DNA of 64,000 nucleotides from assembly GCA_021234155.1 (NCBI GenBank), contig JAJEKV010000064.1:2480001-2544000 (forward strand). Direction: 5' to 3'. Under the pieces are notes generated by a model. It was not told where the DNA came from. It ran no database searches and worked only from the letters and a program-made list of their open reading frames with translations. Position numbers and translations under genes: made by a program. Numbering within the stretch: position 1 is the stretch's first letter; each line of letters begins with the position of its first letter. Below, in pieces: positions 19,548 through 43,277 of this stretch. This stretch comes from Isoetes taiwanensis (lineage: Eukaryota > Streptophyta > Lycopodiopsida > Isoetales > Isoetaceae).

Positions 19548-19605
19548 ATGGAGGAGCTTGGGAAACGTGTGACCACATGGAAACAGCCTGCAACAGCATT
19601 GACGA
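19548..19605 (+). other. Possible small exon in copy A
   Basis: A short frame starting MEELGKRVTTWKQPATALTTR ends at a good 5' splice site (GACAAG|GTACAC). The same sequence is in copy B at about 41810-41868. I do not recognise the protein. Confidence 0.3.
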
Positions 19606-22493
19606 CAAGGTACACTTCTTTATTGATGGGGACAAAAGCTAGTCAACGCCATGTATACGAACTTGATATTCGGGAAATGCGGATAGGGACAAGGGAAATG
19701 CCCTTCTTCGTACTCAAGTTAGATAAAACAATGAACTTAGAGAAATTGTGCTTTGGATTCATTCATACTTGATCTTTGCTTCGAACAATCTTACATTAGA
19801 TCCACACGGCATTGATCCACACTGCAAACCAGGAGAGGCAAAATGGCTCAAAGCTTATACCAATGCAAGGTGTAATCAAAGCCCACCTTGCCATGTTAAA
19901 CTAAGTGTATGCATTGGTTTCTAATGCACTAAACACTGCTTTACTCCAGAGCATAGCTTGCAAAAGTCTAAAGTCCAGTAGTCAGCAGGGGTTTTCGACA
20001 AATAGAACGAAGAAGTTGCTTCATAGGTTCGTTGCTCTATTTTGAAGATTTTATTTGTTTCTTATTCTTATTCACCTTCATTTTTGCCGGATTCGCATGG
20101 AAGCTGCAATTCTTACCTTAGATTTTGCATTGACTAATTATTTTAAGAGAGCAAGGTTAACATAAATTGTTTTCGCAGATCCAATATTTATGTGTAGGCC
20201 TTATCTCTTGCATCTATCCATTGACATCACCGAGGTATTTAAAGTCTGAAGCATTGTCTATAGAGGAGTATTAAAGCGTGAAGTTGGAAGGTAGATTCAA
20301 CAGGTTGATTGGCTTCATCGAAGGTTCTCTCATGGTAATGTGGTCCAGGTCCCATCTCTTGCATCCATTCATCGATATCATCGAGGTATTTATTTAAAGT
20401 TTGAAGCACTGTTTATAAAGAAGTATTAAAGCGTCAAGTTGGAAGGTAGATTCAAGTCTTGTATGGATTTAAATCATTGTTGCTGCTTAAATAACATGTT
20501 GAATAGCTTCATTGAAAGCTGGATGTTCTCATGGTAATGTGCTGTTGTGATGTATCCATCATATTTGTGGTGTCCATTTAATCATGCATAAGGCCTTCAC
20601 CTTTGAAGTCGAACTCTAAAGCATTTGAAACTCATGGGCACAATGAGCATGTTACCGTAGTATTGTGAAAGAGGCGGATAACCAGGTAGAATTTTTGTTG
20701 AATTTCATAAACCAACAAAATTAACACCTTAAGGAACCCTGTTCAATGTGAAACACTGCTTAATCTCTGGTTTTGAGGTTGCATTTGGGGTTTTGGATGG
20801 CATTATTACAGGGCCTCCAAAGTTCTGTCCTGGATGACGTATTCAGATACGGAAAAGATGAGAAAAATGGTTGTCATTGAGCATTTTTGCCATTTGTAAG
20901 AGGCCACTGTTGATGCAAATTCGACATGTTGTTTTAAAGTGAATTACCCGAATCACTTTAAAGACAGCAGAGCTGATCTTACAAACTTGCTAAATATATT
21001 CTATGAAGGATGGATTGTTCGGAGCAAAACAACATATATTGATCAAGTTACTCTATAACAACATTTGTTTATTTGTTTATTTGGTTCCTCCTTTACAGAT
21101 ATCATGTCAATGCTTGCCGTATACATTGAAGATTGAGGAACATCACACATACAACAAGAATATGTGACCATGTTTTATATGCTAAAATAAGACAAACCAT
21201 ATATTAATTTGATAGATGAGTGATGGTGCAATTTTTTTGTGATAATCTGGAGTGCTTACCACAACTTACAATTGGTAGTAGTAATCATGATGTTGTGCAC
21301 ATTAATAGGCCATGTTGATGGAAAATATTGCTATAGATTACCATGTTTATAGCATCATCAAGCAAATGGAATTGAAGATCTCAAGCTAACAGGGCTCACG
21401 CTGCTTATTCACGAATATAACATATAATTTGTAGCAATATTTCCATATTTTCCTCTTGCTCCAAAGCAGTTCCACCACCATGACAAAAAGCTCCTTTAGT
21501 TCATTAGGAAATTGCATGCAAGCAATGAAGAACATTCAAAAGGGGCCTTCTTTTGTAGCAACACATACGTGTAGCTTGTCACGACGATTTTGCCAACTTT
21601 AAATTCAAAACCACGAGAAAAAGTTCACATGTTCTAGCGAGTAGCATGCACAATGGGCTACCCATTGCTCCTATGGTTGTTGCTCCTACCCATTGATTTT
21701 ATGTTGCATCATATTGTCCTTCAGATGGCGGATCCTAGCCTTACCTCTGAAACTATGAGGTGAAGAGTTGTCTGATGAGATAACTATCCTGAATAAGATT
21801 AACAAGGTCTAAATTTGTCCTTCAACGCCATTATTGAGAGCTTTATGTTATATTGCATAATCATTCATTCATATGATGATTCTAAATAGTAATATCTATT
21901 AAGCGTGGAGTTTGACACTGGAAATGTACCTTACAATACCACTGATATTTAAATCCATAGTCAATGCCAACTAATTTATAGCTTCATGTGACGATGTTGT
22001 TGAAACCATATTGAACCATTGGATTGAAAAGTATTCAATTGCATTCGTAAACGGCATCTTTACAAATCACTATGTTAATTAAAGCTCAACACATCCATTA
22101 GGGCATTCATCAATTATTAACGTGTTTTGCTTTAACCATCAATGACATGAGCTAGCTCATGCAATTCATGGTCTGACTTATATATTAATACATAGGTGGA
22201 GTTACATGCATCAAGACGAATATGTGCTCTTGCAATGTAAGAGAAATTTTTCCTTTAATAACCTTGTCTAACCTACACTTAGAGCATTAGGCATACGCAC
22301 ACATGAGATGGGTTGTCCTTCCATTGGTCTTTTCTCCTCGTGTTGTATTTGACAACATCCTAATTTCCTTTGTAACATCATTCCCTCTAACTTTTCTTTT
22401 GCCTCAACCCTGCATTTCCGCTAGTTTTCTTTTATTTGAAAAATAAATAAGAAATTCAAAAAACATTGGCAAGTTCATGAATCTATCTATATA

Positions 22494-24570
22494 TCTCTAA
22501 TATATAATTGTAATATGGAAGGTAAGGGGCCAGCTTAGGCGCTGGTGCCTTTACTGGAAATTTATGATATGAATTGTACACATGTCTACATAAAAAAAGT
22601 TTGGAAGACGGTAGTTTCTTCTGGAGGTTTCGAGTATGGACCTGAAGCTTTCGCCAATTTCTGGAAGTTTCCAGCCTATTATTTCAAGCATTATATATAA
22701 AAGGCAAGGGTCAGATGCTTCGATCAATGCAAGAAGAAGCCAAGAATTTGAAGAGGTTCGGAAAGGAGGCTGAGATTAATTAATATTTGAAGAAGCCGAG
22801 AAGAGGATCTTTGAAAGGAAAGTCGGATCTATAAGAGCGAAGTTCATCTACCAGTAGAAGGCATGCATCGTCGGGCTAGAAACAAGCCACGCTTCTAGGC
22901 ACGAGGTCTGTTCAGGCAAACAAGCCACGCTTCCGACCCACAGGCCCCTTTTCGGCCGAAGATTGATCCAAACCACCTCTTTTCTTCAAACTTTCCTAAA
23001 TCCGACCCTCCGAGCTGCTTGAATGCAAGCTCAAAACCTCATTTCTTCCTTTCTCAATATTCTTAATCCGGCTTCTATCTCTGAAACGCCAGCTATGGCA
23101 TCTTCCGGCTTCTGAAGGCTGGTTTTCATATCTGGATGTTTATCAGTCCTCACCATCGCCGATTCAAGTGAAGAAGCGTCCGCTGCTCCTTCTACTTTCC
23201 AGGTAGCTCTGGATTTGTTTCTTGCTTCAAATCATTGGGTTTTTTTTTTTTGCCATTTCTTTTTCAATTAGCGCTCTTTTTCCTCTTCGAGTAATGCTTC
23301 AATTGTTATAATCCAGATTCATCTCGTCTTTTGCAGCTTTTTGCAATTATTCACGATAAGCTATGAAGTAAGCTTAATCTGGAGCAGTTGATCTATTTTG
23401 GGCATGAATGCAGTGGATGCACTCCGTTTCAAAGGCTTTAGAGCTGCTCTTTATTGGGCAGCAGAACATCTGTCGGTATCCAGGTTCAGATGGAGTCAAA
23501 GATACATTTGAATTCTTATTCTTATTATTGGATCCCTGGTAATGCTTATCGGATGCTGACAAGCACCGAAGGTGGAAATGCAACATAACAGATGGATATG
23601 GGAAGGATTTAAAAGGATAATAGATTAATTCTCATATACTTGGGCCTTACATTTCACTATTGAAGCTGAATTAAGCAACCTATGCTGGTGCAGGGGTCAG
23701 TGTCAATAAGCATGTCCCTTCATCAGACAAGTTTGTGTTTTGTTTGCACACATCTAACGGCTGGAGAAAAAGGAGATGAATTTCGGCGGAATGCAGATGT
23801 GATAGAAATATTGCGTAAAACATACTTTCCTAGCTCATCCAAGTCATCTGAAGTAGGCCTATCTGAAAATTATTGACCACGAATATGTGACTTGAAAAAT
23901 GGTACTATTTTCATAATTGGGGGTTCATTTTGATAATTTCTTCTGTTTTTAAGTGCAGCCAGATTATCTGGTTTAAATTATCGGATTTCTCTACCATATG
24001 AGGAGACAAGAGCCTTGGTAACAAAAGAAGATTGGATTGTACGTTAGATACGTTGATAATAACATTAAAGATTGAACGCTAGTTGACTATCATTAGTCCA
24101 AGTTGACCACTAATAAATCCTAAGCCAAAATCGGAGAAGGTGCAAGATAAATGCTATATCCTTCTAACTAAAGAATAATGGCTAACAATTTATTATTGCC
24201 ATGTCCCAATCTGGCATTGTTATTGTTATTTGCAGATCCGTTCTCCAGCAATGCATACATTTTAAGCTTTGCATTTGCATCAAACTTGCACTCACAAGCA
24301 TTTTTCCTTCTGAAGAAAATTTAGACGCTATTATTCTATTCTATTGCATCATTAATTGATATAGATGCATCATTCAAGCTAAACTTTGCCAACACCTAAA
24401 TGAACGAATCCAATAGCATATACTTGGCAGCCGTTCATTTTTTATCCTTTGTATAGAAATTACGAGAAAAGAGTAAAAATGTTAAATTAATACTGTACGA
24501 TTTTCTCATTGTGTCTAAAACATTTACAGGCTCCCAAATTATGCCCAGCAACGCTGGGCACCATTACTAG
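22494..24570 (+). mobile_element. Candidate non-autonomous Helitron, copy A
   Basis: The proposed 5' end is A|TCTCTAATATATAATTG at 22494. The proposed 3' end is a hairpin TGCCCAGC AAC GCTGGGCA (24542-24560), 6 nt, then CTAG (24567-24570) followed by T. Both borders fit insertion between A and T without target duplication, and there are no terminal inverted repeats. Length is 2,077 bp. It encodes no Rep/helicase, so it would be non-autonomous. It carries a captured gene fragment (see 23694). The last ~35 nt are shared with the inverted terminus at 54075-54120, supporting a common family. The 5' border is less certain than the 3' border. Confidence 0.6.
23694..23910 (+). pseudogene. Captured inositol polyphosphate 5-phosphatase exon
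   Basis: After a 3' splice acceptor (GGTGCAG|GG at 23693) the frame reads GSVSISMSLHQTSLCFVCTH, then LTAGEKGDEFRRNADVIEIL and RKTYFP. This is the conserved core of plant type I inositol polyphosphate 5-phosphatases, enzymes that remove the 5-phosphate from Ins(1,4,5)P3 and related lipids. A further piece in another frame (KIIDHE, ~23868-23885) matches the segment before the WLGDLNYR motif. The catalytic GDLN and downstream SDH-type motifs are absent, so no enzyme can be made. It lies inside the candidate Helitron in the same orientation, which suggests transduplication of a host exon with its intron border. Confidence 0.8.
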
Positions 24571-24576
24571 TTATAT

Positions 24577-24650
24577 TATATTTTCATGATATTATATTTA
24601 TACAAGAATTTAGCGCCGGCGGAGCCAGCGCCCGATGCACCCCAGAGGCA
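24577..24650. repeat. Hairpin-bearing short repeat, copy A
   Basis: Immediately after the Helitron end, a ~75 bp stretch with ATATTTTCATGATATTATAT, ACAAGAATTTAGCGCC and a GC hairpin (24613-24630, stem GCGCCGGC/GCCAGCGC, loop GGA, one mismatch) is also found in copy B (48103-48176) and at 57360-57433. It ends at CACCCCAGAGGC in all three. Confidence 0.75.
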
Positions 24651-26455
24651 TCTGAATGGTTTAGGTAGGCTCTAATCCAACTATCAAGATCAAATCAAGG
24701 TAATTATTGCCTGAGATATATCAATGTCAGTACAGATGCTAAACAATTTAGCTGGTCTGATAATGCAAGCGATACATAATATAGGGGCTAAAAAATTTGT
24801 TCTGACCTCTCACAGCCCTGAGATGCCTCCCCATACCATAAATCTGATACGTAACAATGTGGTTAAAACAGAGGACTATACTTTCTCAACAAAGATGTTG
24901 AAGACTTCAACAAAGCTGTGAAAACCCAGATAGTACAAGAATAGTGATATATGCAAATTCATACAACTACATAGAAGCAGCAGTAAAAAACTCCGAAGCA
25001 TATGTTAAAAAAGCTCCACAATTCCATAATTCAAACCGTAACTTTGGATACAATTATAAAGTTTTGATTCAATTCAGAAAAAAGCTGTTAGCACCTTTTA
25101 GGTTTCTGAAACCGCATTGAATTTAATGCTGGAACTTAAATACACGAGCAAAGTTCGTCTTCTTATATCTGGTGACATATCCAACCTAAAGTAACTATTA
25201 ATTTGACAAATGCTACTATTATTATATGCCGGAAATCAAGTATTTAGATATCTTGGTGAATATAGCAAAAGTATCGCCAAGCTTCCACGTGAAGGACATA
25301 TGTTGTTAGTATCTTTGTTTTCAAGAGCAATGATGGCCTATAGGCAATGCATCAAATGCACAACCATTTTCGGATAATTCTACAAATGGTGTAATAATTT
25401 TACTTTCTTATTTTTCTAGCGTAAGCTAATAATCGATGAAATATATCATCTTTCTTTGTTTCAGCTCAAGCTAATAATTGATGACTATATCTATATCCAA
25501 TCACCGTGTCCTAAGAACACAATTCTTTGTACTTTTAGAACTTAGACATTCAAATGGGACACCAATCAATTCACGGCAATCCTATATGCCAATATTATCC
25601 TGTATGTCACTTGCATAATGGCTTCACTTCTTCGTCCCATTTTATCTCTCTTCCTATGCAAAGGGCAAGAAACCACCAACGAGCCTCATTTACTGACAAT
25701 GATTTAATAGAGACTTAGATAGAATATATCCACTAAGCTACGCAATTGAATGTGGCCTTACTTACCTAGATTTCTTCTAATGTCATATGCCTCCCAATAT
25801 TGTATCCATATCTCTCATGTTTGTATATATATATCTGCACGTGTAAAAGCAGATTACATTCTAGGAGGTCAGAGATGTGACATTCAATCAGGGTGTTGGA
25901 CTAAATGTAATAACAAACCGAACTGGATGTTATAACCATACCTAGATGCCATGTTCGTGGCAATAAAACTCCTTGCAAGCATAATTCAAACCTTAAAATA
26001 TGGCATTCCTTTCTTGTTTCCAATTAAATTGCACCTTGTATAGCCCATCAGTCATACACAAATTTTATATCATGTCGAGGCCTGTGAAAATAGATCAAAT
26101 TTTAGACACAAGCAATATTTTTGCGATTGATCTGATGTATAATGTCATTCTTATCTGGCTACATATTTCATGGGTGCTCCACTAACGTTATTCCTGAGAT
26201 ATCCCTCCACATATAGTGTGTTTGCCTGAAAGAAGGACATTACGATCCTTTGTAACATCAGTCTGGTCCAGTTCAAAGATGGTTGGAGCAAGTGTGATAA
26301 AAATGAAAGACATGTTCATGATAGTAAGGCTCTTAGGAAGCTTTTTGGAGGATATCTTCTATATCCTCTTTTCTTACCTCCACTTCCAAAGCCCCAAAAA
26401 GATATCCTAGGTACTTCAGAAGCTACCAGAATCTCAGGTGCCTCAAAAGCTACCA
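24651..26455. other. Unit interior without recognised gene
   Basis: Short frames are shared with copy B (for example 26000-26185 and 49520-49705, identical 61-residue frames starting MAFLSCFQLNCTLYS), but no domain is recognised. AT-rich and intron-like. Confidence 0.4.
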
Positions 26456-26457
26456 GA

Positions 26458-27365
26458 TTGCTCAAGTATTGTATGCAAGAATCGTGCTGTAGCGGAATAG
26501 GTAAGAATGGAGCAATGATGTCCTTTAGTACCAAAGCTTCTAAGCTGGAACGTATTGCAAAAACAAGTACAGCAGAGCATGTGCTGAGTGAATTAGAAAC
26601 CAAACTCAGTGATGAATCTAGTAATACCATATGTGAGCTGCAAGCAAAGATTACGACTTTAGGCACTAAAATTGAAACAGCAGAGGGCTTAGTAAATGAG
26701 GTAGGGGATAAATTATCTAAAACCGAAAGCAGGGTATCAGAGCTAGAAACAGAACTTCATGCGTCAGGCACAAAGCTTAGGGCCGCTATGGTAACAAAGT
26801 TTGAGGCGAAACTAGCCCAAGAGAAAGAATGTATGTCCACTTTGAAAAATAAGGTTGTGGAGCTAGAAAACTCACTTCAAGCCATTGTTGGAAAAGCTAA
26901 TACAACAGAGCGAAGTGACAGACTTAGAAACCCAACTCTCAAAAGCAGCAGGGCAGTCACGAAATGCAACTTTCGGTTCCCTTGCGGCAGGTGAACAAAA
27001 GATCTCTAAGCTTGAAGAACTGCTGAAAGTATCCTCTCTAAAAGCCGAGGCAGTAGAAAGTAAATTGTGCGAGCTTAAAAAGAGTTACTGAGGAGCACGT
27101 GAAAAAGATCTCTCAAACCTTGAATAAGTTCCTAAAAGAGCCTCCGATAAATCTGATACAACGGAGGCAGAGTTGGCCCAAGCTAAAAACAATGTTTCTT
27201 ACTTGGAAGCTCAAATTGCAGAGTTAAAAACAAAATATGATACAACCCAGAGTAAAGAAGCAGATTTACGTACCAAATTAGCAAAGATAAGGACGAGCTG
27301 TCCGTGTTGGAACTTGAAAAAGCTGATAAATCGGAGGTTAAAGCTGCAGAACTGGAAATAGAGTA
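26458..27365 (+). pseudogene. Coiled-coil protein segment, copy A
   Basis: The main frame (178 residues from 26458) reads as an almost continuous heptad coiled coil: LSELETKLSDESSN, ICELQAKITTLGTKIE, VSELETELHASG, MSTLKNKVVELENSLQ. It then shifts frame near 26905 into LETQLSKAAG, ISKLEELLKVSS and AEAVESKLCELKKSY, and again beyond 27150 (YLEAQIAELKTKYDTTQSKE). The total coil would be about 300 residues, as in plant cytoskeletal or organelle-tethering coiled-coil proteins, but I do not recognise a family. The frameshifts fall at CAG-type sites (for example around 26900-26960), so the gene could be intact in reality. An equivalent lies in copy B at 50030-50885. Confidence 0.55.
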
Positions 27366-28100
27366 ACCGGAACTCTGTACGAATTTCGGAAAGGGCATGT
27401 CCATTTGGCAGTTTAAGAAGATCCAAAATCTCACTCTTTTTTGCTTCTAGAGCTTTCAACGCTTACAAGGCAAATTGCATCAAGAATGTCCAAGGCGTTA
27501 AGCAAGCAATGAAACAGAAAGCGATGAAACAGATCCAAGGCTTGCTCGCCTTTGGCGCTGGACGTCTACCAACCCGGACCTCTGCCAAACAGTTGCAAAT
27601 GTACCTGCAATTTTGCTTCCGCTGCCATGGATCGGCTGGAACGAAAGAAAAGGAAGCGTTCATGCCACTGCCATAGGCCCGAACAATCCCTACCGTCAGG
27701 CACATCCCAGGTGAATCGTTGCCGTCTAATTGTCACTGGGCCTCACAAAAACCCTAAAAAAGCCCAACTGATCGCATCCGCTTACATAGAATATTTCGGG
27801 GCATATTATCCTCAAAACAAATCCAAGCCTTCAAACCGTCACTCTTTTTGTCTCTGATTTTATTTTTTGTTCTACAGGTTAAAGATTCAGGTAGATTGGG
27901 GTTTTCGGCAGAGAAGACCTATCTTGGCTTTGGCAGTGCCAAATCGGCAGGATTATGGCCGATTTCATCCCTCCATAACTCTGTTTTCTTTTTATTTCAC
28001 AGGTTAAGCTTCAACCCATTCGTTTTTCAGCCCAGAGCAGACCGATTTGATATGCTTGGAGGATTCTGGCTTTTAATTGCTCTTAATCTATCTTAGTTAG

Positions 28101-29766
28101 TGTGACGTTCCAGGACAGTATACGGTCCCAGGACGTATACTGTACTGCCCCGTCACGCGTACACGCCACCCCGACTGACGTGTACGCCAACGTGTAGCTA
28201 GGCTAGTAGCCCTAGGGGGCAACGTGCAAGGAGTGTGCATTTATTAATGTGCACATTAAACAATGTGCACATTCACTTAGGTGCACATTTTCCCATATGG
28301 CCACTTCATGCCAAGTGGGCCACACCCATAGGTGCAATTAATGTGCACATCCTCCAATGTACACATTAATGTGGGCACACATTTCCATGTGGGCACATTT
28401 TGCCACCTATCCATTAAAGGCAAGTGGGCCCATTCCCAATTATCCCACATGCCTAAAGGGGATAATTGGAAACCCTAGCCAACCCCTTGTCTATTAAGGG
28501 AGGGAAACCCTAACTTGCCCAATTTTCGTTTCTAGGGTTTTGGAACTCTGTTTTGGCTGCCTCCACAGCCAAAACCGCCTCCCAGACTCTGCCTGAGAGA
28601 ATTGCACCCTTAGTTTCTCTTGATTCGAGCGTTTCAGCAGGATGGTCGAGCTCAGGTCAGGAGGAGTCCCTCAAGGATCGGGGGTATTTAGGCAATTTAA
28701 TAGCTTAAACCCTCCGTTAGCCATCGAATCGGTAGGGTTTAGCCTCTTAAATTGCCCATAGCAGCCCTCTAGATCTCTAGATAGCAGATTCTAACTAAAG
28801 AACCTAACTCTATGATGTAGATTAGATCTAGTTCTTTAGTTCTCTATGAAGTATATGGATGATGTATCTCTATGAACTCCTTGTATTGGGAAGGGGGGTA
28901 GAGACCCAAAGCTTTGTAGTTGATGCTCCTAGAGTAGCCTCTAGCACCTTGTAGATCAGAACATTGTACAAGAACCACACCAGGGTTGTGGGTGAAGGGG
29001 CAGGGACCGGCTAAGAAGGAGGTTCATGTCCCGACTCTTGAGCGATCCCTACGGTGTGTAAGGCCTACCAGGAATCATTGTGACTAGGTCTAATGGGTCA
29101 CCACTGAGTGCGGGTGAGGCATGGACTCGACAGAGTGAAGTGGTGTACACTTTCCAGTGGGGTTCGGTCGAATACACAGGCGGTGGCCCTCTAGTCACCT
29201 TGAGTCGGCATGTAGATCTCTGGAGGGAGTGATCCCTTCTGCCCCATCGGAACCGGGAGGATGAAACCTGTGAATAGCCCTTACGGCTATGCATCCCGCG
29301 GAACTCTGTCCCGACACTTTTCAGCCTACTCACGCAAAGTGTGCACGGGAGGGGCGGATGGAGTGGACAACCCTATGCCATGTTCATATGCCAGCCAAAT
29401 CCATTGCCATGAATTACATGCCCGCAAGGAACTCGGAGGCCCAAGCCGTCCGTCATTCCCTTGAGCCCGAGCCTTGGGTAGAACTCCCCATATGTATTGT
29501 GCTCACCTTGTTTATGCGGTGTATGATGGACCACCCTTCGAGGTGGATATATGCTTATGTTATATAACGACATGTATGTTTACGCTTCGCGACTAGGTAG
29601 GCCCCGAGGGGAGGCGGGGTAAAATGACCCCTTCACTCTTCCCAATGGAACCCGATCCACGGTTGCGGTGTTATGTGGAGGGCCCTCAGATCGGCATGGA
29701 GCCGGTATGGGGATGAACTCTGTTTGTATACGGTGAGTGCACCGTATACGAGTAGGGGACGTCACA
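28101..29766 (+). repeat. 5' LTR of the chromovirus
   Basis: It starts TGTGACGTTCC and ends GACGTCACA, giving short TGTGACG/CGTCACA inverted termini. The U3 part has several copies of TGTGCACATT (28220-28380), a near-palindromic repeat. The first ~95 bp differ strongly from the 3' LTR, whereas much of the interior is nearly identical. A TATA box was not assigned with confidence; R/U5 borders are unknown. Confidence 0.95.
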
Positions 29767-29767
29767 G

Positions 29768-29780
29768 TGGTATCAGAGCC
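29768..29780 (+). promoter_or_regulatory. Primer binding site, tRNA-iMet
   Basis: TGGTATCAGAGCC begins 2 nt after the 5' LTR and is the standard plant initiator-tRNA-Met complement, where minus-strand cDNA synthesis starts. Confidence 0.95.
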
Positions 29781-29973
29781 AAGTTCTTGGTGACCAAGAG
29801 CAAAGCACTGACCATGTTCCCAGTAGTACTAACTTGATAGGATCCTTAAACCTCGAAAAAATGGGAAAATTTTTTTCTCTTTTTTGTAGTTTTGCTAAGC
29901 TAGTAACAGTTAAAATGAATGAAAACGAAAAAAATATTAAGAATTGATGAGCCAACCTTCCAAAAGTAGGGTG

Positions 29974-30040
29974 GTCTCACACGTCGCGCCAGGGCAGATT
30001 TTGAGATTCTCAAAATCGGGCTGGGCGCAACGTGTGAGAC
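29974..30040. promoter_or_regulatory. Nested hairpin repeat H1 (module 1)
   Basis: A 67 bp inverted repeat. Outer arms are GTCTCACACGT...ACGTGTGAGAC, middle arms GCGCC...GGGCGC, inner arms ATTTTGAGA TTC TCAAAAT. The whole can fold on itself in DNA or RNA. It is the first of four copies. Confidence 0.9.
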
Positions 30041-30173
30041 ATTCAGCTTAAACGCTTAAAAAGTCATAAATCACAGTAAAATAACGTGATAAATCTAAAT
30101 TTAAGCTAAGAATCATTAGAATTGGCATGTTACATATTTTAAAAGTACAAAATTTAGTAGTGGGTCCCACCAT

Positions 30174-30238
30174 GTCTCACACGTCGCGCCAGGACAGATT
30201 TTGAGATTCTCAAAATCGGGGTATAGCAAATGTGAGAC
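30174..30238. promoter_or_regulatory. Nested hairpin repeat H2 (module 1)
   Basis: Second copy, starting exactly 200 bp after H1. Its left half equals H1 but the right middle arm has decayed (GGGGTATAGCAAATGTGAGAC), weakening the stem. Confidence 0.9.
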
Positions 30239-30312
30239 CTTGCTTAATTAGGGTTTTAGATGTTTTAAGCAACCCAAAAAGGTAGTTTAAAAGTTGACAT
30301 AAAATTGACCCC

Positions 30313-30320
30313 TATAAATA
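30313..30320 (+). promoter_or_regulatory. TATA box of module 1
   Basis: CCTATAAATAGACC has a canonical plant TATA core, 111 bp before the ATG at 30424. It is followed by a pyrimidine-rich stretch and GTCCTTAG, consistent with an internal Pol II promoter inside the retroelement. Confidence 0.65.
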
Positions 30321-30423
30321 GACCTAGACCCCTCCCATTTCCACGTTCTGTCCTTAGAAAAATTGTTCGTGTCCGCCAAGGCGATCTTCCGGCGCTTAGC
30401 TCCGATCGACGAATCAGCAAGTG

Positions 30424-31700
30424 ATGGCCCGCACGAAACAAACTGCCAGAAAGCCTCGTCGAAGCGATTCATCCAGCGCCAGCGGCTCTGGCCTCTTTCA
30501 GAGAGTCCTTCAAGAGCGCCTTTTCCAGAAGGCGAATCTTCTTCGGCGAAGATACGGGGATCGGATCGGGCGACCCACATGAATCATAGGCGGCGGCCAG
30601 CCCGGACATCATGCATCAAATCCTAGAGGAGATCGCGGTGGAGGAGGAGGAGAGGACCGAGGAGCAACGGGAGCCGAGGGCAGCCAATAGTTGAAGAGCA
30701 GCTCAGGATCGGAGACCCACCTACGGGGAAGAACGAGGGGAGGGAAGAAAGCTGGCCTAACCAACTTAGCCCCCGCAAGAAGCGCAGATCTTGCGCGCTT
30801 CATCCGCAAGTACGAGGCCAAGGAGCGCCGTCGTGAGCAAAGGACGAAGAGTCGGGAAGACGACCCGACCACAGCCAGCGGGCCAAAGAAGAGGAAGGCT
30901 AAAGCCATCAAAGCGGGCAAAAGAAAGGTTGTGAGGGTTGGTAAGCGAGGAACGAGGATCAACATCAACGAACCATCAGGAGAAGAGACCCCGCCTTCTA
31001 CCGACGCGATTGGACGAAGACTACGGCTCGGCATTGAGATGGAGCGAGTTCGTCAAAACCCCCTTTTGTAGAGAAGGAAGTGCCCCAAAGTTAGACAGCA
31101 GTAGCTTTGGTAGTAGCACAGCAGGAGGAGGCCGGACAGGCGGTGAAGCCCCCACCGTTCCCGACGTGGGATAGAGTTAAAGCCCCGCGGCCACAACGGG
31201 AGGCATATGTGATAGACCCCGGCCAAGGTCTATCGAAGAGGATCAGGGAGCACAACACCTACATGGAGAAGTGGGAGGCATACAATGCCTACTACCAAGA
31301 ACACAGGGTGAGAACGATTGAAGGCGGACACCCGACGAGGAGTCAGACCCTGAAGCCCCCTCCACCAAAGCCCAAGCCTCCCAGAGCACCAGGAAAGAAG
31401 CGGGCCGGCAAGAAGAAGTTGGAGAACAGAGCCCTCAAGGAAATCCGGCACTTCGAGGAGAAGTCTGGACTCTTGATCCCCCGGGCACCGTTTCAACGTT
31501 TGGTCCGCGAGGTTACGCAGGAGTATAATACAGACATGCGGGTGACGGATGAGATGCTGTTGTGCTTACAGGAAGCAGCAGAAGCGAAAATAGTGCAGCA
31601 TTTTGAAGATTCGACGGCCTGCACGGTACACGCAAAGAGGGTCACCCTCATGAGGCAGGATATGTATCTTGCCAGGCACATCAAGGGAGAACGCCCTTGA
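30424..31700 (+). CDS. Retroelement-encoded histone H3-like protein (frames broken)
   Basis: The ATG at 30424 opens MARTKQTARKPRRSDSSS, whose first ten residues equal the canonical H3 tail, with K4 and K9 kept and S10 replaced by Pro. This frame closes at 30582. Coding-like sequence continues in other frames: an acidic piece (IMHQILEEIAVEEEERTEEQ, ~30608-30670), a basic piece (30691-31071, with RGGKKAG and KKRKAKAIKAGKRK) and the last frame, 31107-31700. Its ~92 C-terminal residues are an H3 fold: ALKEIRHF (alphaN), APFQRLVREVTQEY (alpha1), TDMR (loop 1), LQEAAEA and HFED (alpha2), HAKRVTLM, then QDMYLARHIKGER. By eye about 47 of 91 residues match H3, with no loop-1 insertion of the CENH3 type. 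A long charged linker (~300 residues) separates tail and fold. Frame breaks may be real decay, introns or sequence errors. Confidence 0.88.
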
Positions 31701-31844
31701 ACTAATTGTAAATAAGGAACAATTTTGTTAATATAAAGAATTTTTGTGTAATTAATGTGTCTGATCTAGCTTAATTAAGTTAAGTTAGAGAATTCTAGTC
31801 TTTTGTTTTAGTTAATTTGGAGCTTTGAGCAAAATTGAGACGAT

Positions 31845-31911
31845 GTCTCACACGTCGCGCCAGGACAGATTTTGAGATTCTCAAAATCGGGTTGGGCGCA
31901 ACGTGTGAGAC
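31845..31911. promoter_or_regulatory. Nested hairpin repeat H3 (module 2)
   Basis: Third copy of the 67 bp inverted repeat, almost identical to H1 and with complete outer, middle and inner arms. It lies about 145 bp after the stop codon of the H3-like frame, past an AT-rich stretch (31705-31790) with AATATAAAG that may serve as the end of transcription unit 1. Confidence 0.9.
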
Positions 31912-32044
31912 CATGCCCAAAAGTGCCCAAAACAGCTCCAAATCGACCAAATAAGGGGTCAATTCTGCCCCTAATCGACGAGTTTAGTGGAATTACGACC
32001 TTAAATCACCCAAATTGATTAAGTCTAGCCCAATTGGGACCCAT

Positions 32045-32110
32045 GTCTCACACGTCGCGGGGACGTAAAAATGAGATTCTCAAAATCGGTCTGGGCGCAA
32101 CGTGTGAGAC
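32045..32110. promoter_or_regulatory. Nested hairpin repeat H4 (module 2)
   Basis: Fourth copy, again exactly 200 bp after the preceding one. The left middle part is altered (GCGGGGACGTAAAAATGAG), while the outer arms and right half are kept. The flank before it (GGGACCCATGTCTCAC) resembles that before H2 (GGGTCCCACCATGTCTCAC), indicating that the whole two-hairpin module was duplicated. Confidence 0.9.
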
Positions 32111-32289
32111 CTCGCATCATTTTCTTCACCAAATGATCTCCAGTTTGCTGCAATAGGTTCATTAGTGTTCTTAGCATGCCTTAAACCAAAAATTAGCCTC
32201 CAAACACTGAATTGCACCTCCTAATAGGTCAGAATCGCCCAACTCCAGTGAATTCTAGGTCATCCAAAAATTAGGGTTTTTCACTTTTC

Positions 32290-32297
32290 TATAAATA
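32290..32297 (+). promoter_or_regulatory. TATA box of module 2
   Basis: TTCTATAAATAGGCC lies 120 bp before an ATGGCC at 32410, mirroring the 111 bp between TATA box and ATGGCC in module 1. Both leaders share AGGCGATCTTCC upstream of the ATG. Confidence 0.65.
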
Positions 32298-32610
32298 GGC
32301 CATCACTTTTCATTGGGCACCCCGCAAGTTTGCTCTCCCCTTTGCTTAGGCGATCTTCCAGCTCCCGAGGCGCTCGCATCCGTTTGATACTCCCTTCCTT
32401 GCTAGATCAATGGCCACCGCCGACTTCACGCCGATGGTACGGTGCCCGGTGCCCATGCTGGCGAGATGTCAATGACATCTTCCAAGTCTTTGGCAAAGAA
32501 ATTGACATCAAGCTACGCTAAATGCAACCCCAAAGATATAGGCAAGTGCTAGCGAGTTTCAAGCTAGGGTAGGACCTTCCCTAGTTCAGGTTCCCCTTGC
32601 ATAGGCTATT

Positions 32611-33912
32611 TTGTCCCCGCCCATCCCTTCAAGCAGCCCAGGGGATGTCCCCAACATCGCCAAGTACCTAACCAACAAAGCGCCAAAGGCTGCCGGACTA
32701 CATGGTCCCCGACAGCCAACGGGACCAAGTACTTCTCCTACACCGGCCTTAGCCATCTTCTTATCCCACCGTGTCGACAACCCAACGGGGCAACCTCTAT
32801 CCCTCCGATGGAGGTGGACCCCATAGCGGTCTGAAGAAGAAGAGCGGATGCTTTGCAATATCGCCAGAGCGAGGAAGCGTAAAACGAGGAAGAAGAGGAG
32901 TCCGACGAAGATAAGTACACGGCAACAAGCACAACAGGAGATGATAAACTTCGAGCAGAGCCGGCAGAACATCAGGGTTGCTCCCCCACTCGGGTTAGGC
33001 ATCACAAGCCTAGCCCCGATCATCATCAACGGAGAGGAATATTTACTCCTCAGCGACATCCAGAACCTTCCCGAGTGCAGGGAGAGGGAGCTCAGATTGG
33101 ATGAACTACTCCACCAGCTACGGCAGTCAGACTTGGACGACTTCATCGTCCGGGGAGCCTCGGACTTTCCGCTTCAAGTGAGGGAAGCCGACACTTATAC
33201 AGGAGAGGCGACTTCAGATATACAGGCCTACAGCAGTATCAGGCAAATGATGGAGGAGCAAGAGCTGCCAACGGAGGAGGAGTTCCTCGCCCTCCAGGAA
33301 CAGATGGGGATCCGTGGGAAGACCACGAGCATTTTAATGCCGAGGCCTTCGACACCACCTCCATCAAGAGGAGAAGGAATCGACCTCAGACGAATCGACA
33401 CCATAATCGAAGACTACAGGGAACTCACCGAGATAGGGGTCGACGAATACGCGGGACGACATAGAACAGGAGGCCAATCCAGCGGAGAAGCTTCAGCGAC
33501 GCACAATGACAGGTCCCTGAGGTACTACCTGCCACTACTGCTAGATGGGAGGATAACGGTAGTACACCGCAAATTCAGCCCCAGGGGCGAGGAAGGAGTG
33601 TTCATGCTGATTGCACTCTCAGGCTTCGGCAGGCATGCTCGAATAGCAGCAAATGTCGACTATGCTGTCCTGGTCAAGAGAGCAATGGCACTTGACCTCT
33701 TCGACTTCGCCATACCACATCGACGTCAGGCGAGATTAGCGGTGGCTGTGGCTCTCACATCCGACCGCAGAGTGGAAGACTTGGCAAGAGCCTTGCAGGG
33801 CGGCTCGTCAGCAAGCGTCTTCAGGAACTTGGGTCATTCGGTAGGAACGGCCCAAGTTAAGAAGTTCCTTGAGGACAACCCGTCTTACCGGCGATTTCAA
33901 GACTACTCTTGA
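32611..33912 (+). CDS. Unknown basic protein of the retroelement's second module
   Basis: The frame from 32611 is interrupted by one TAG at 32824 and otherwise runs to 33912; the part after the stop is 354 residues from ATG 32848. The N-terminal part is Pro/Ser-rich. A strongly basic stretch (RARKRKTRKKRSPTK) resembles a nuclear localisation or nucleic-acid-binding segment. The middle is acidic and helical (LDELLHQLRQSDLDD). The C-terminal ~120 residues look folded (YYLPLLLDGRITVVHRKF, DYAVLVKRAMALDLFDFAIP, KKFLEDNPSYRRF). A shorter frame begins at the module's own ATG (32410, MATADFTPMV) and stops after 21 codons, so an intron or error may lie between. I recognise no domain, and it shows no H3 similarity. 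It ends 360 bp before the first gag-like frame. Confidence 0.7.
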
Positions 33913-34276
33913 TCCCGGAGACTTTTTGTACTAAAATATTACATAATATATGAATACAATCTCTGCTGCACTTTAAATGTTTTGTTGATGTAATTTTGCC
34001 CCACAGCTATACCAACAAACATAAACAATGCAAGAGAACAAGGAAAACTAACCATATAGCCATGAATTACTTGTGTATGCAGTTAGAGGCCTAGGCTCAG
34101 GGGAACGACAACGCCAAGACCTTAGGGAAGAGCAGACCCGCCCAGACCACCCCGGCAAGGAACCTATTTGAAGATATGGAACCCATGACCCGAGAGAGGA
34201 GGAGATATCCCGGATGAGGGGACGGACCTTGAGCAGATAAAGGCTCATTAGCCGCACAAGCGGGGAGCGGGTTTCG

Positions 34277-35718
34277 GTGGGCAATGCTCAATTACCACAA
34301 GCATCAGCTCCGGAAAACAGGAAGGGACAAGAAGAGGAACAAGAGAAGAAGATCCCAGCTTCGGACTCCTCCGACTCAAGCTCAGAGTCGACTTCCGGAC
34401 CCGAGGAAGAAGAAGATCAGGCCCAGGACCTAACAGGACTTAAAGGCAAAGGAACACCGAAGAGGGAAGGCAGAGGAACACCCCGGATGGACAACAAAGA
34501 GACACTGGGGCCTCGACTACCGGAAGAAGGTAGATTCCGTGATTGGGCAATGTATGGAAGGCGGGAATCGAACAGTTCTCTGGGAGAACAAAATGTTTAG
34601 AAGCTAAGCATGGCTGGACGAAATGAGTGAGTACGGCAATGCTTATGGCATGAAGGATAAAGACAAAGGAAGAGTGGCAAATGACCAACTTGAAAGGAGC
34701 CGCACGGATTTGGTGGAAGGGTTATGCAAAGGCACATGGCTTAAGCAGGGATGCTTGTAAGTTCAGAAAGTTTGCTAAAGCCTTCAAGCGCCATTACGTC
34801 CCGAGGGAACATAAGTCTAGTATGATGCAGCAGTTCTACAGGTTGCAGCAAGGCAACAAATCTGTCCAGAAGTATACAGAGGAATTCATGAGGCTGAGGC
34901 TGTATGTGCCGAAATTGGGTGAGAAGCATGCAGTAGAAAGCTATATTGAGGGGCTGAATGAGGAGATCCGCAAGCTTGTGAGGGCAATAAACCCTAAGAC
35001 AGTATCAGAAGCAGAGTCCAAGGCTATAAGCTTGCAAGGGACGGGACCTCAGAATAGCGGGCAGAGGCAGCAGCATTTCCAGGACAAAGGCAAGGCGACA
35101 GGAAGCTATAGCCCTAGAGCAGCCAGTCCAGGTCCAGCTAGAGCCCCATATGGTGGCAACCAGGGGAAACAGCAGGAGAAGAAGCAGGTGTCCTTCAAGG
35201 ACAAGCAGGAGGGGTCAAACTACTCCAAAGCAGTGCGATCCTTTTTGCAGGCGATGCCCAAGGAAAAGAGACAGGAGTGCATAGAAAAGCAGCTTTGCTT
35301 CAGGTGCTTCCAGCCAGGCCATAGGACAGCGAACTGCCCCTACGTCATGAGTGCAGCGTTAGCGGAGTTGGGAGATTGGGACACTCTGTCTGACGACGAC
35401 GGCGAGGAAGCCCGCGACTACATTCAGGGTGAGTGTCATATCTTTGCCGCAATAGATACAGAGCAAGCAGAGAGCCAGTATAAAGTAATTTCCACAGTAG
35501 GGAAGGCCAAGGCCAAGTCCTTCATAGTCTTGATAGACTCGGGAAGTAGCCATAACTTTGCATCCCCCAGAATGGTTCAAATGTTGAAGTTGAAACCACT
35601 AAAGTCAAAGCCAAGGCCCGTTGTCTTAGCAAGTGGTGCGATAAAAGCGATTTGCAGCAAGAGAATTAACCGACATCGACTTGCCGAGGGATTAAGATCC
35701 AGATGGGGGCAGAAGTAA
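34277..35718 (+). CDS. gag: gag-protease of the chromovirus
   Basis: A first frame (34277-34600) is a hydrophilic, acidic Gag N-terminus (DSSDSSSESTSGPEEEEDQ). After a frame change, 34681-35718 carries the retrotransposon Gag domain (LKGAARIWWKGYAKAHG, FRKFAKAFKRHYVP, SVQKYTEEFMRLRLYVPKL, YIEGLNEEIRKLV). A Lys/Gln-rich linker follows, then a CCHC zinc knuckle (CFRCFQPGHRTANC, residues ~205-218) that packages RNA. The aspartic protease begins with the active-site motif VLIDSGSSHNF (residues ~283-293, catalytic Asp at about 35536). The frame breaks at 35718 inside protease; the remainder is in the next ORF. The initiation codon is uncertain because the 5' frames at 34000-34280 are broken. Confidence 0.93.
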
Positions 35719-36137
35719 TGGGCATTGGCAAGTACGACTTGATCATAGGAATGGAGTACCTTGGACCAGCAGGGGCCATTATCGATTGTGGAAAGCGGAA
35801 GGTGACCTTCCCAACACCCGACGGCAAGATCATCGAGATCACAGGTAAAGAAGTTGTTCCCATCATGCAGTGCATGTCTTCTAAGCGGCTGTTCAAGTGC
35901 ATCAAGAGCGAGCAGGTGGCATACATCTTCAAGCTTGAGATTGAGGAGCCAGAATCAGAGGGAAGCAAGGAAGACAGGGTGCTCAGCAAGTTGCCGAAGC
36001 AAATAGCTCAGCTAATCACGGAGTTCCATGATCTCTTTCCAGATGAGATCAAGCAGCTTCCTCCTTATAGGGGAGTCGAGTGTGAGATAGCACTTTCGAA
36101 CAGGGAGCAAAGCCGACAAGCAAGGCTCCACTCATGA
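35703..36137 (+). CDS. pol: Protease C-terminus and linker to RT
   Basis: Another frame continues the polyprotein with [20 protein letters not shown], which contains the I(I/L)GMxWL-type flap and end of gypsy proteases. It then carries a linker ending in [20 protein letters not shown], the usual lead into RT. It overlaps the previous and next frames by a few bases, so only a frameshift separates it from both. This is one polyprotein in the functional element. Confidence 0.9.
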
Positions 36138-37171
36138 CGACGCAGGAGTTGACGGAGCTGAAGAAGCAATTGCAGGAGTTGCTCGACCTAGGTTTCATTA
36201 GACCTAGTGTCTCGCCATTTGGAGCGCCCATTCTCTTTGTAAAGAAGAAGGATGGCAGTTTAAGGATGTGCATAGACTATAGGCAGTTGAACAAGCACAC
36301 CATTAAGAACAAGTATGCGCTCCCCAGATCAGATGACTTGATGGATCAACTCCAAGGTGCAAAGGTCTTCTCCAAAATCGACTTAAGGTTAGGTTATCAT
36401 CAGATTAGGATAAAAGAAGAAGATATCCATAAGACCGCCTTCAGAACGCGGTATGGGCATTATGAGTTCACGGTAATGCCTTTCGGCTTATCAAATGCCC
36501 CCGCGACGTTCATGAGGCTCATGAACGACATCTTTAGGGAGTTTTTAGACACCTTTGTGATTGTATTCTTTGATGACATTTTGGTGTATAGCAGATCCCT
36601 TGAAGAGCACGTACAAGACTTAAGGAGAGTGCTGGAGAAGTTGAAGAGGCACCAGTTGTACGCCAAGTTGTCGAAGTGTCACTTCGCAACGGAGAAGGTG
36701 GAATACCTTGGTCATGTGATCTCAGCAGAAGGAATCTCGACGGATCCTGCCAAGATCGAGGCCGTCATTCAGTGGCCGGCGCCGAAGAATGTGCATGAAG
36801 TCAGAAGTTTTCTAGGCCTAGCAGGGTACTACAGGAAGTTCGTGAAGAACTTCGCTAAGATAGCGGCCCCGTTAACAGACTTGACGAGGGCGGAAAAAGT
36901 GAAAGATTGGGCAGAGCATTGGCACAAGAAAGCCCAAGCAGGGTTTGAATTGTTGAAGGAAGCCTTAACAACCGCCCCAGTCTTAACCCTGCCGGACCCG
37001 GAGAAAGATAAGCTTGTAGCCACAGATGCGAGTAAGATAGCTACAGGTGCAGTGCTCATGCAAGAAGAGTGTGTGGTAGCGTATGATTCCAGGAAGATGA
37101 ACGACGCCGAAACGCGCTACCCGACGCATGATCAAGAATTGCTTGCGGTTGTCGTGGCATTAAGAATTTGA
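36134..37171 (+). CDS. pol: Reverse transcriptase and RNase H
   Basis: RT motifs occur in order: [72 protein letters not shown], then the catalytic FFDDILVYS (about 36565-36592; Asp pair conserved). The thumb/connection has GHVISAEGI and [13 protein letters not shown]. RNase H starts at [19 protein letters not shown] (first catalytic Asp at ~37024) and includes [20 protein letters not shown] (catalytic Glu). The frame breaks at ~37166, after which RNase H continues in other frames (YLFGKEVP, PHLNPRRRRWMEFL, 37180-37330). The enzyme copies element RNA into cDNA. Confidence 0.97.
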
Positions 37172-37330
37172 GGCACTATCTTTTTGGGAAGGAAGTTCCG
37201 GTTGGATATGCACTCACCATGAGCCTCGGTATGTATTCACGCAACCACACCTCAACCCGAGGCGTAGAAGATGGATGGAGTTCCTTGAAGAGTATGACTT
37301 TGATATAGTCTACAAGCGGGGAAGCTCAAT

Positions 37331-38862
37331 GTGGTAGCGGGCACTTTCAAGGCATCCACGACAACTAGAGTGCATTGCAATCCATTTCGGCGCTCTCCGG
37401 CTGACTTTGGTAAGAAGATTGAAGAGTCCTTGCCAACAGATATGGATTTCAAGGAAGTATGGGCAAGCCTCTCTAGGGAGGCTAGAACAGATAAGGAGCG
37501 GGAAGCCTTTAAACATTATAAGAAGGAAGGCAACCTGTTATACCATAAGAACAAGTTGTGCGTACCCGAATCATCAGGTGTAAGGAAATTGATCCTCCAC
37601 GACACGCACAACAGCCCAATAGCTGGCCATGCGGGATTCATGAAAACATATTTCAAAGTCTTGGCGCCTATTATTGGCCAGGAATGAAGAAGCAAGTAGC
37701 TCGCTACATCAGAGAATGCCAATTATGTCAGCAGACGAAGGCAGAGCAGCTTCGAATTCCAGGAGCATTAGAGCCATTGGCGGTGCCAAACGCTAAGTGG
37801 GAGGTGATTAGCATGGACTTCATCACAGGACTCCCAAGGACCGTAAGAGGGAAAGATGCTTTGATGGTAGTAGTCGACAAGTTGTCGAAAATGGCACATT
37901 TTGTGCCTTGCAGGACCACAGATACAGCTATGGATACAGCGAAGCTCTTCACCAAAGAAATTTTCAGACTTCATGGCATGCCAAGGGAGATTATCTCCGA
38001 CAGGGATCCGAAGTTCATGAGTGCCTTCTGGCAAGACCTCTTTACGACAATTCAGACGAAGCTATCCATGAGCACGGCATATCATCCTCAGACGGATGGC
38101 CAAACGGAGCGGACCAACAGGATTTTAGAAGACATGCTACGAAACTATGTCTGGAATAAGCAAGGTATGTGGGAAGAATTTATTCACTTGGTGGAGTTTG
38201 CATACAATAACGGCTATCAGTGCCTAACTCCAGACACTTGGCACAACCCCGTGTCAAAAGTGGAAGTTTCGCAGCAGATGTTGGCCGATATGCAGCAGCT
38301 TGTGGAAGAGGTTCGAGGGTATTTGCTAGCAGCAAGAAGTCGGCAGAAGAGCATCGCCGACAAGCATCGAACAGTAAGGGAGTTCAAAGTTGGAGATGAT
38401 GTTTGGCTCAAGATCAAGGTGAAGCGGTGGCTTCGAATCGGGGAATTGCAAAAGCTTGCTCCAAGGTGGGCTGGACCTTTCAGAATAGTCAAGAGAGTAG
38501 GTAATCAATCCTACAAGCTAGACTTGCCAGCACACCTAAAGATTCATAAGGTCTTCCACGTGAGTTTGTTGAAGAAGCACACTCCAAATCCAGACGAGGT
38601 CTTGGACTCTCCAACATTGTTGGAAATGACGGAGGAGCAGCTGGAAATAGTTCCGGAATTGATTCTTGATAAAGCTTTCAAGAAAACGAGGAGATCAGAA
38701 TTCCTCCAGTATTTGGTCAAGTGGAAACACTTACCAGTGGAAGACGCGACATGGGTACTTAAGAAAGATTTGGTAAAGCAGTACCCACAGTTTATGGAGC
38801 AATGGGACGGCAAGGTCATCTCCGAAGAAATCGGCTCAGGCATGTCGATTTGTGTAGATTAA
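37331..38862 (+). CDS. pol: Integrase with C-terminal chromodomain
   Basis: The zinc-binding HHCC region spans two frames joined near 37680: HDTHNSPIAGHAGF (His pair) then YIRECQLCQQTK (Cys pair). The core has the D,D,E triad: SMDFITGLPRT (~37815), IISDRDPKFMSAFW (~37998) and QTERTNRILEDML (~38107). A short deletion seems present after FAYNNGYQ (38200-38250) compared with usual gypsy integrases. The C-terminus has the GPY/F module (LAPRWAGPFRIVKRVG, YKLDLPAHLKIHKVFHVS) and a chromodomain (LILDKAFKKTRR, FLQYLVKWKHLP, DATWVLKKDLVKQYPQF; ~38660-38800). Chromodomains of this family steer integration towards chromatin with particular H3 methylation. The stop at 38862 is the pol terminus. Confidence 0.96.
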
Positions 38863-39743
38863 TTCTATGTATAGTTTAGATTAATCTACGCATGCAACCT
38901 ATGCTAGGTATGGGTCGCATGCGTTGTGACCGATGATGAGACCACTACGGTGATCTCTAGGGCGTGGTGTAATGTCAAGGTAGGCATGACCGGCGTTTGG
39001 GCAGAAAGTGGAAGGTAGATTAGAAAGTCTACTACGTTCCCCGGAAGTAGGCGACCTCGAGAAAGGAGGTCATGAAGGAATGCACTGATAGGAAAAACAC
39101 CTCTAGCCCCATATATGCTTTGATAGGAGGAATCGGGGCCTTCACGCCCCATATATGGGAAGGACCTATCCCTATTTGGGCAACTAGGGTGTAGGCATGA
39201 GCGGCATATAGGCATATAGTATTTGTCTCCACGGACCATAATGGAAGATTCACCCTCTTCCCCTCGCCGGGAGATTAGCCATGCATCCATGTAGATAGGT
39301 GGGGTGGTCACCATATAACCAAAATTTTATTAATAATTAAAATGGTACTAGCGTAGTGTCGACACATGTAGGCCAATAGGCTCGGGAGGGCAAGGAGGTC
39401 GAGCTCTGAAGACTTGCAACACAAATTTTGTTGGAATGTGTTGCAAGGAATGAAGAATACCTCAGGGCGTTAATTTTAATTTTGATAAACTTAATTGTCA
39501 TGTTAAGTGAATTATTGAGTAACTTTGTTTTAATGATGTTATGAATTGATAAGTTATTTCATAATATAATGGCGTGATAATGTCCTAAAAAAAAAAAATA
39601 ATAATAATAATAATAATATTACCTTAAGGTAATCTTAATAAATGTGTAAGTACTATAGTAGTTATAGCATGTATCAGGTTGATTGCAGGTTAGGATGATC
39701 CCAAGGTGGGGAGACCCACGATCTTTGGGGACGACATCATTTC
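38863..39743 (+). other. Untranslated 3' region of the chromovirus
   Basis: About 880 bp between pol and the polypurine tract have no sense ORF. A 136-residue antisense frame (39314-38904) is open but unlike any known protein. An A-run followed by ATAATAATA (39588-39619) is a simple repeat. A first GGTGGGGAGA copy at 39704-39714 imitates the true polypurine tract 38 bp downstream. Confidence 0.7.
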
Positions 39744-39756
39744 AAGGTGGGGAGAA
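39744..39756 (+). promoter_or_regulatory. Polypurine tract
   Basis: AAGGTGGGGAGAA directly precedes the 3' LTR start (TGTGGCGTTC). This purine tract is the usual plus-strand primer of chromoviruses. Confidence 0.92.
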
Positions 39757-43061: not shown

Positions 43062-43277
43062 CAAAGTTCTATCCTGGATGGCGTATTCAGATACGGAAAA
43101 GATGAGCAAAATGGTTGTCATTGCACTGTTGATGCAAATTCGACATGTTGTTTTAAAGTGAAATTCCCGAATCACTTTAAAGACAGCAGAGCTGATCTTA
43201 CAAACTTGCTAAATATATTCTATGAAGGATGGATTGTTCAGAGCAAAACAACATATATTGATCAAGTTACTCCATAA
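43062..43277 (+). other. Conserved open frame in copy B, broken in copy A
   Basis: The frame reads ILDGVFRYGKDEQNGCHCTV, then CCFKVKFPNHFKDSRADLTN and IFYEGWIVQSKTTYIDQV. It looks like a genuine exon of a globular protein. In copy A (20815-21055) the same region has an extra ~25 bp (GAGCATTTTTGCCATTTG...) and a stop. I cannot assign a family. A GT follows the end in the AT-rich sequence, but no strong splice consensus is seen. Confidence 0.4.

Follow-up and report, generated by a model that had tools for sequence, protein, structure and literature searches.

A chromovirus of Isoetes taiwanensis encodes a histone H3 variant

The window analysed here is a 64,000-nucleotide stretch of Isoetes taiwanensis DNA (contig JAJEKV010000064.1, positions 2,480,001 to 2,544,000, forward strand). 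A 13.3-kb chromovirus, a Ty3/gypsy long terminal repeat (LTR) retrotransposon, spans 28157-41417 of the window, and two accessory genes, open reading frame 1 (ORF1) and ORF2, sit between its primer-binding site and gag. It is near certain that ORF1 is an element-encoded H3 variant of ~400-440 residues, composed of H3 tail residues 1-9, an acidic/basic linker and a diverged core. Its parts in the window copy are given below.

30424-30582, + strand: start of ORF1, the exact H3 tail MARTKQTARK followed by PRRSDSSSASGSG...; the tail frame closes at 30582 in this copy
30691-31071, + strand: middle of ORF1, linker with the basic stretch KKRKAKAIKAGKRKVVRVGKR; in a different frame, broken in this copy
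31107-31700, + strand: pre-core region followed by the H3 core, at the C-terminal end of ORF1; 197 aa ending in ...KGERP, with the stop immediately behind
31422-31697, + strand: histone H3 core, corresponding to H3 residues 44-135, placed by PDB alignments and core comparison

A first-pass annotation, made from the sequence alone, had read the frame at 31107-31700 as an ungapped, about half identical H3 core that stops where H3 stops, and this was borne out. The frame matched Pfam PF00125 (Histone) with an E value of 5.8e-26 and 91.6 bits (cut-off 26.4); at this E value a chance histone match was rejected. In a PDB search with the same frame the best 60 of 179 matches were all H3 (top E 8.7e-28). 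The core aligned to H3 without gaps in all three PDB alignments printed, was 52% identical to plant H3.3, and is followed directly by the stop. The annotation placed the core correctly but not the extent of the gene, which starts at 30424 with the H3 tail. MARTKQTARK at this start is, after the Met, exactly the first nine residues of mature H3. H3 residues 10 to ~43 are replaced by the long linker, and the match to the H3 tail is confined to the tip. The acidic linker segments carry a net charge of -13 in each of two stretches, as counted in one copy. The window copy of the accessory ORF is itself interrupted between its tail and its core, since tail, middle and core occupy different frames and the core is readable only from ~31089 onward.

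Other identities were considered for ORF1. CENH3/CENP-A is marked by a longer loop 1 and lacks the canonical tail tip; this identity was rejected, as there is no loop-1 insertion (the core is ungapped in the printed alignments) and the tail tip is canonical. An ordinary host H3 gene was rejected, since 15 such genes were found separately, at 96-98% identity. A hAT transposon carrying the H3-like gene H3L was also rejected: a hAT transposase and terminal inverted repeats would be expected, and the element has LTRs and gag-pol.

The LTR pair, primer-binding site, gag, protease (below the Pfam cut-off), reverse transcriptase (RT)/RNase H and integrase with chromodomain are present in the order of a chromovirus.

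28157-29768, + strand: 5' LTR, 93.15% identical to 39813-41417; borders ±~15 nt
29768-29780, + strand: primer-binding site TGGTATCAGAGCC; the motif (at most 2 substitutions) is also in 4 of 5 other copies examined
34681-35718, + strand: gag with zinc knuckle, and start of protease; Retrotrans_gag E 1.2e-17
36134-37171, + strand: RT/RNase H; RVT_1 E 4.5e-40
37558-38862, + strand: integrase with C-terminal chromodomain (~38650-38808); Chromo E 3.3e-10
39813-41417, + strand: 3' LTR, pair of 28157-29768

The Pfam matches of the gag frame to protease and zinc knuckle lie below the curated cut-offs. The two LTRs differ by a Kimura two-parameter distance of 0.059 over 1588 sites, and no matching target-site duplication was seen in the printed flanks of the element. 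For the integrase chromodomain the top PDB matches were Chd1 chromodomains, with HP1-type rows ranking lower. At the positions expected for the cage residues, the domain looks like a plant-type chromodomain in which the first and the third of them are missing (in that type the third is usually missing; PMC3350952).

Copies of ORF1 in the Isoetes genome

The assembly searched comprises 1,658,258,908 bases in 1110 contigs. With the window frame as query, 150 of 11,247 first-look candidates were scored; each of the 150 spans residues 15-191 of 197 or more, at 79-93% identity (the window itself at 100%), and 129 have no internal stop as counted by eye. Of 40 copies fetched, 30 have tail, linker and complete core in a single open frame of 398-439 residues. 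Among these 30 open copies, L011 and L012 have shifted stretches and one runs past the usual stop. In L037 the fetched piece first shows the 3' end of a different ORF1, after which comes an ORF1 lacking its tail; the copy is rearranged or partly tandem.

Twenty long copies were compared for gene order. Core, ORF2, gag and RT lie in order in 14, of which 12 have near-window spacing (L017 and L023 are shifted). Downstream of the core, L010, L011, L019 and L020 are inverted, shifted or incomplete, and ORF2 and gag were not seen in the long pieces of L013 and L024.

A search based on RT gave 117 scored matches from 36,595 candidates. One of the 150 ORF1 matches lies 2-30 kb upstream on the same strand in 35 of the 117 (window included). 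The ORF1-RT distance among these 35 is at most 5.4 kb in 28 and 4.9-5.1 kb in 23; the seven farther ORF1 matches may belong to neighbouring elements. For 20 of the other 82 RT matches the expected ORF1 site was fetched. An ORF1 relative was present in 17 of these 20 sites, and none was found at the expected site in L056, L057 and L067. Thus the histone segment is carried between primer-binding site and gag by other element copies, as the annotation required of a captured gene, whether copies are picked by ORF1 (all 150 scored matches, with the order kept as above) or by RT. A one-off insertion of a host pseudogene was rejected, given the many copies in register within the element.

Conservation of core and tail

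The equivalents of C110, H113, D123, L126 and I130, which we take to be H3-H3 interface positions, are kept in all 35 ORF1 cores examined; the first three had already been noticed in the window frame. R69, R72, R116 and T118 are likewise kept in 35/35 cores, and R83 in 34/35. DNA-contact residues have been lost at three positions, by R63P and F84V (both 35/35) and by K122Q (33/35; K122 is altered in 34/35).

The tail reads exactly MARTKQTARK in 30 of the 40 fetched copies and MARTKQTTRK in 2 more. It is altered in L009, L011, L018, L022 and L035 and absent in the rearranged L037; in L030 it is clipped by the piece edge and matches from T3 on, and in L047 the tail was not reached. The position of H3 S10 is P in 30/30 open Isoetes ORF1s. 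Silent variation is seen within the tail codons, R2 being written with four codons, A7 with all four alanine codons and R8 with three.

To estimate selection, dN/dS was calculated from pooled Nei-Gojobori counts with a codon bootstrap in 28 open copies, L011 and L012 being excluded; dS among these is ~0.4-0.6. The ratio for H3 residues 1-9 was 0.011 (bootstrap 0-0.032) in these copies; they had been ranked by ORF1 similarity and chosen as open by means of the motif MAR.K, so that A1, R2 and K4 are fixed by the choice, whereas the count of 30 exact tails in 40 is independent of this motif. With L011 included and L012 excluded, the tail ratio is 0.075 (mean over pairs). Residues 10-39 gave 0.361 (0.226-0.540), the whole linker 0.216, the pre-core region 0.114 and the H3 core 0.046 (0.025-0.075). 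In 16 copies chosen by RT, the core ratio was 0.184 (0.139-0.225), a figure from 51 of 120 pairs, the others being saturated or having too few common codons. For RT itself the ratio was 0.037 in 11 RT-chosen copies, window included. The ratios of ORF2, gag and RT in ORF1-chosen copies (0.44-0.53) were set aside, frameshifts having inflated them.

The tip of the ORF1 tail and the core are under purifying selection, and for copies chosen by ORF1 itself the H3 core is roughly as constrained as RT. The first-pass proposal that an H3 gene was captured long ago and kept as an accessory ORF stands as to its being kept, by selection and by the number of copies; "long ago" would fit the divergence.

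Within the copies L050-L078, silent divergence is much greater in ORF1 (0.46 to saturated) than in RT (0.24-0.55). This gap suggests module shuffling between elements; the RT-based choice of copies may contribute to it.

Promoter cassettes and a second accessory gene

Besides the H3 ORF named in the first-pass annotation, a second accessory ORF lies downstream of it at 32410-33912. Each of the two accessory genes is preceded by two 67-nt palindromes ~200 nt apart and by a TATAAATA box.

29974-30040, unstranded: palindrome 1, 67 nt, the outer one upstream of ORF1; DNA fold -28.2 kcal/mol, z -10.65; outside the pieces fetched from other copies
30174-30240, unstranded: palindrome 2, partly decayed, 200 nt from palindrome 1; left arm in 18/20 other copies
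30313-30320, + strand: TATAAATA box (TATA), 111 nt before the ORF1 ATG; in 20/20 copies
31845-31911, unstranded: palindrome 3, upstream of ORF2; left arm in 20/20 copies
32044-32110, unstranded: palindrome 4, ~200 nt from palindrome 3; left arm in 18/20 copies
32290-32297, + strand: TATAAATA box (TATA) before ORF2; in 17/20 copies
32410-33912, + strand: ORF2; 5' part broken in the window, open from 32848

The ORF1 TATA box lies 104-113 nt before the ATG wherever both were found in 20 other copies. The presence of TATA boxes and palindromes before both genes therefore suggests that ORF1 and ORF2 may be expressed apart from gag-pol. In L056, ORF1 was apparently lost by joining of a palindrome before ORF1 with one before ORF2.

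In the single fetched copy that is open from the ATG, ORF2 encodes 508 aa and carries an acidic stretch. No Pfam or NCBIfam match was obtained for it, and its AlphaFold model has a mean confidence (pLDDT) of 35.9. One relative was found among 8000 candidates scored: P0241, 47% identical over 99%, a 501-residue protein on a 2-kb contig of 'lgn' source.

A second H3-bearing family and database relatives

The genome was also searched with ordinary H3, giving 150 scored matches from 9,022 candidates. Besides the 15 host genes, the other 135 scored cores show 71-86% identity, and many lie inside frames of more than 400 residues. Six copies of a second family (family B; L090-L096) were fetched, the family of the window element being termed family A. 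Their frames, of 463-494 residues before choice of a start codon, contain an H3 core (~80% to plant H3) fused to an N-terminal domain unlike that of family A. The ARTKQTARK tail was not found in the six fetched frames, nor were the palindromes and TATAAATA of the window in the fetched pieces. One family B copy is followed by a frame weakly related to ORF2 (24%, E 2.7e-8), by gag at 52% and by integrase at 84% over 129 residues; no RT match was found downstream of that copy. At least two chromovirus families here are thus judged to encode H3, the second from the surroundings of this one copy.

In the tree, families A and B each make up a supported group of their own (100/100 and 99/97). Family A stands on a long branch apart from H3, family B and the database family described below, with bootstrap not settled. 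The C-terminal residue P is common to family A and 5/6 family B cores. Because of this shared last P, the shared position in the element and the weak ORF2 match, a single capture for the two families would be favoured; the trees do not show it.

A database search with the linker of P0085, another H3 of tail-linker-core layout, showed that 1242 clusters share this linker; 120 of them were listed (P0122-P0240 among them), all of ENA source. The tail pattern is present in 98 of the 120 listed proteins and is exactly MARTKQTARK in 45. The residue after K9 in these 98 is N in 88, K in 7, D in 3 and never S. Tail and core are both complete in 27 of 124 database proteins examined, and the seven cores that were set against plant H3.3 show 80-90% identity to it. 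By eye, tail variants of this family such as MAC., MAH. and MARM look like CpG decay, as in a methylated repeat. From the number of clusters, our guess is that the database family belongs to a mobile element.

When the P0085 linker was searched in the Isoetes genome, the 132 scored matches rested on the histone core, some reaching weakly upstream of it. In a profile comparison of Isoetes ORF1 with the database family, the core alone aligned, and kinship of the two linkers is therefore not shown. The motif LCLQEA was dropped as a link between family A and the database family, not being universal in family A. A search of viral contigs with P0085 found no relative.

Possible function of the element-encoded H3

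Silencing of plant retrotransposons proceeds largely through DNA and H3K9 methylation. We tentatively favour, at somewhat short of an even chance, the reading that the ORF1 H3 variant enters host chromatin chemistry and blunts H3K9 silencing at the element; the step from an H3 variant to anti-silencing is one that we hypothesize. ORF1 protein would be made from its own promoter and would pair with host H4 through the kept H3 surfaces, entering nucleosomes or the free H3-H4 pool. Its tail would present K4 and K9 to host writers and readers without the usual S10, K14, K27 and K36 sites. The protein could then occupy or divert the H3K9 silencing machinery and loosen the chromatin at element copies, and loosened chromatin would allow the element to stay expressed.

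A bolder form of this reading is possible, although we hold it to be doubtful. The lineage would possess a histone-variant system of its own, comprising the K4/K9 tip, the loss of the S10 switch, a private promoter and a second accessory protein, and the variant, deposited at element copies, would make chromatin that the host could not silence in the normal way. On this bolder reading, the loss of S10 in two unrelated-looking families, that of Isoetes and that of the database, would be a convergent escape from the phospho-switch.

Strongest constraint falls on the tail tip, the DNA contacts R63, F84 and K122 are replaced in 35, 35 and 33 of 35 cores, and the linker contains acidic segments. 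These features would also suit a soluble decoy that forms no nucleosomes, binds H4 or chaperones, and titrates K4/K9 enzymes and readers with free ARTKQTARK tails. A pure decoy would not need R69, R72, R116 and T118 or R83, all of which are kept as described above, nor does it account for the strong constraint on the core; we regard it as unlikely. Still less likely, in our estimate, is a self-made landing pad, in which the variant marks chromatin that the integrase complex recognises (through the chromodomain, gag or ORF2), steering insertions to tolerant sites. An integrase chromodomain and two accessory genes with matching promoter cassettes would agree with it, and some LTR elements, MAGGY among them, have been shown to be targeted by way of the chromodomain (PMC3350952). 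The landing pad is weakened because the chromodomain, best matched in the PDB by Chd1, seems to belong to the plant group that has lost the first and usually the third cage aromatic.

ORF1 has basic stretches, and its H3 core retains several DNA contacts, which would allow the histone to condense element cDNA in a virus-like particle or pre-integration complex. Such a packaging role leaves the exact K4/K9 conservation of the tail (dN/dS 0.011) unexplained, and ORF1 has its own TATA box, separate from gag; this role is improbable. That ORF1 is a mere passenger, whether a captured H3 gene that is copied with the element but has no function or a host pseudogene inserted once, is hardly credible: the window copy is broken and functionless captured genes are common in transposons, but many copies occur at the same element position, dN/dS is far below 1 in ORF1-chosen and RT-chosen copies alike, and a second family also has an H3 core.

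If the anti-silencing reading is true, an element-made H3 that keeps the K4/K9 tip without the remaining tail would be a direct weapon in the silencing conflict. The ORF1 family would then be a natural experiment on the required content of the H3 tail, and diverged H3 variants under selection are useful for finding the truly required H3 residues. It also offers a test case for chromatin proteins as effectors of plant retroelements.

Relation to known systems

Histone genes occur in other selfish or viral DNA: giant viruses encode histones and a bracovirus encodes H4. These are DNA viruses, and we know of no retroelement among them. The first-pass statement that no retrotransposon is reported to carry a histone holds for LTR elements, none having been found in the literature searched, outside whose reach lay most subscription papers and preprints; among transposons at large there is precedent, in the H3-like gene of fungal hAT DNA transposons (PMC3538342, PMC6710886; both available in part). 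According to these portions, H3L has been amplified on hAT elements in Pyrenophora tritici-repentis and other Dothideomycetes, with 26 nearly identical copies in P. tritici-repentis and, in Pseudocercospora fijiensis, hundreds that repeat-induced point mutation (RIP) has inactivated (PMC3538342, PMC6710886). Both systems are mobile elements with an H3-like gene, and the N-terminal tail is interrupted by insertions in each of the 26 H3L proteins (PMC3538342, same portion). Unlike H3L, which rides a fungal DNA transposon, the Isoetes H3 rides a plant LTR retrotransposon. It is also deeply diverged (dS ~0.6 to saturation) under purifying selection and keeps the ARTKQTARK tip exactly, with a TATA box at a fixed distance; its element has a second accessory ORF.

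Capture of genes by LTR elements has been described elsewhere. Gypsy elements of Phalaenopsis orchids are also plant Ty3/gypsy elements with a captured host-type regulatory gene, but the gene is an AlkB-like m6A (N6-methyladenosine) RNA demethylase and not a histone (PMC9289625, in part). In the same source, 121 angiosperm genomes were screened and LTR elements yielded 15 extra domains, histone not being among those named in the accessible portion (PMC9289625). LTR retrotransposons of bdelloid rotifers likewise have captured accessory ORFs (ORF3s) and modular exchange, whereas their ORF3 types are Env-like, esterase and exonuclease (PMC5408684, available portion). Plant chromoviruses with a group II chromodomain share the LTRs, the gag-pol order and the integrase chromodomain, and their plant hosts include a lycophyte; an H3 ORF is not mentioned for them in the accessible part of the source (PMC3350952).

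Other features of the window

The flanks of the element, 19156-27844 and 41415-51370, constitute a duplicated segment, ~96% identical, and the 3' end of the element coincides with the border of the duplication. A tandem repeat with a unit of ~218 nt and copies ~98.8% identical lies at 5188-5964. Two overlapping frames at 51799-54056 resemble, by eye, a subtilisin-type protease split by a frame change. The frame at 61946-62536 has by eye a CCHC zinc knuckle and is perhaps a gag remnant of another retroelement.
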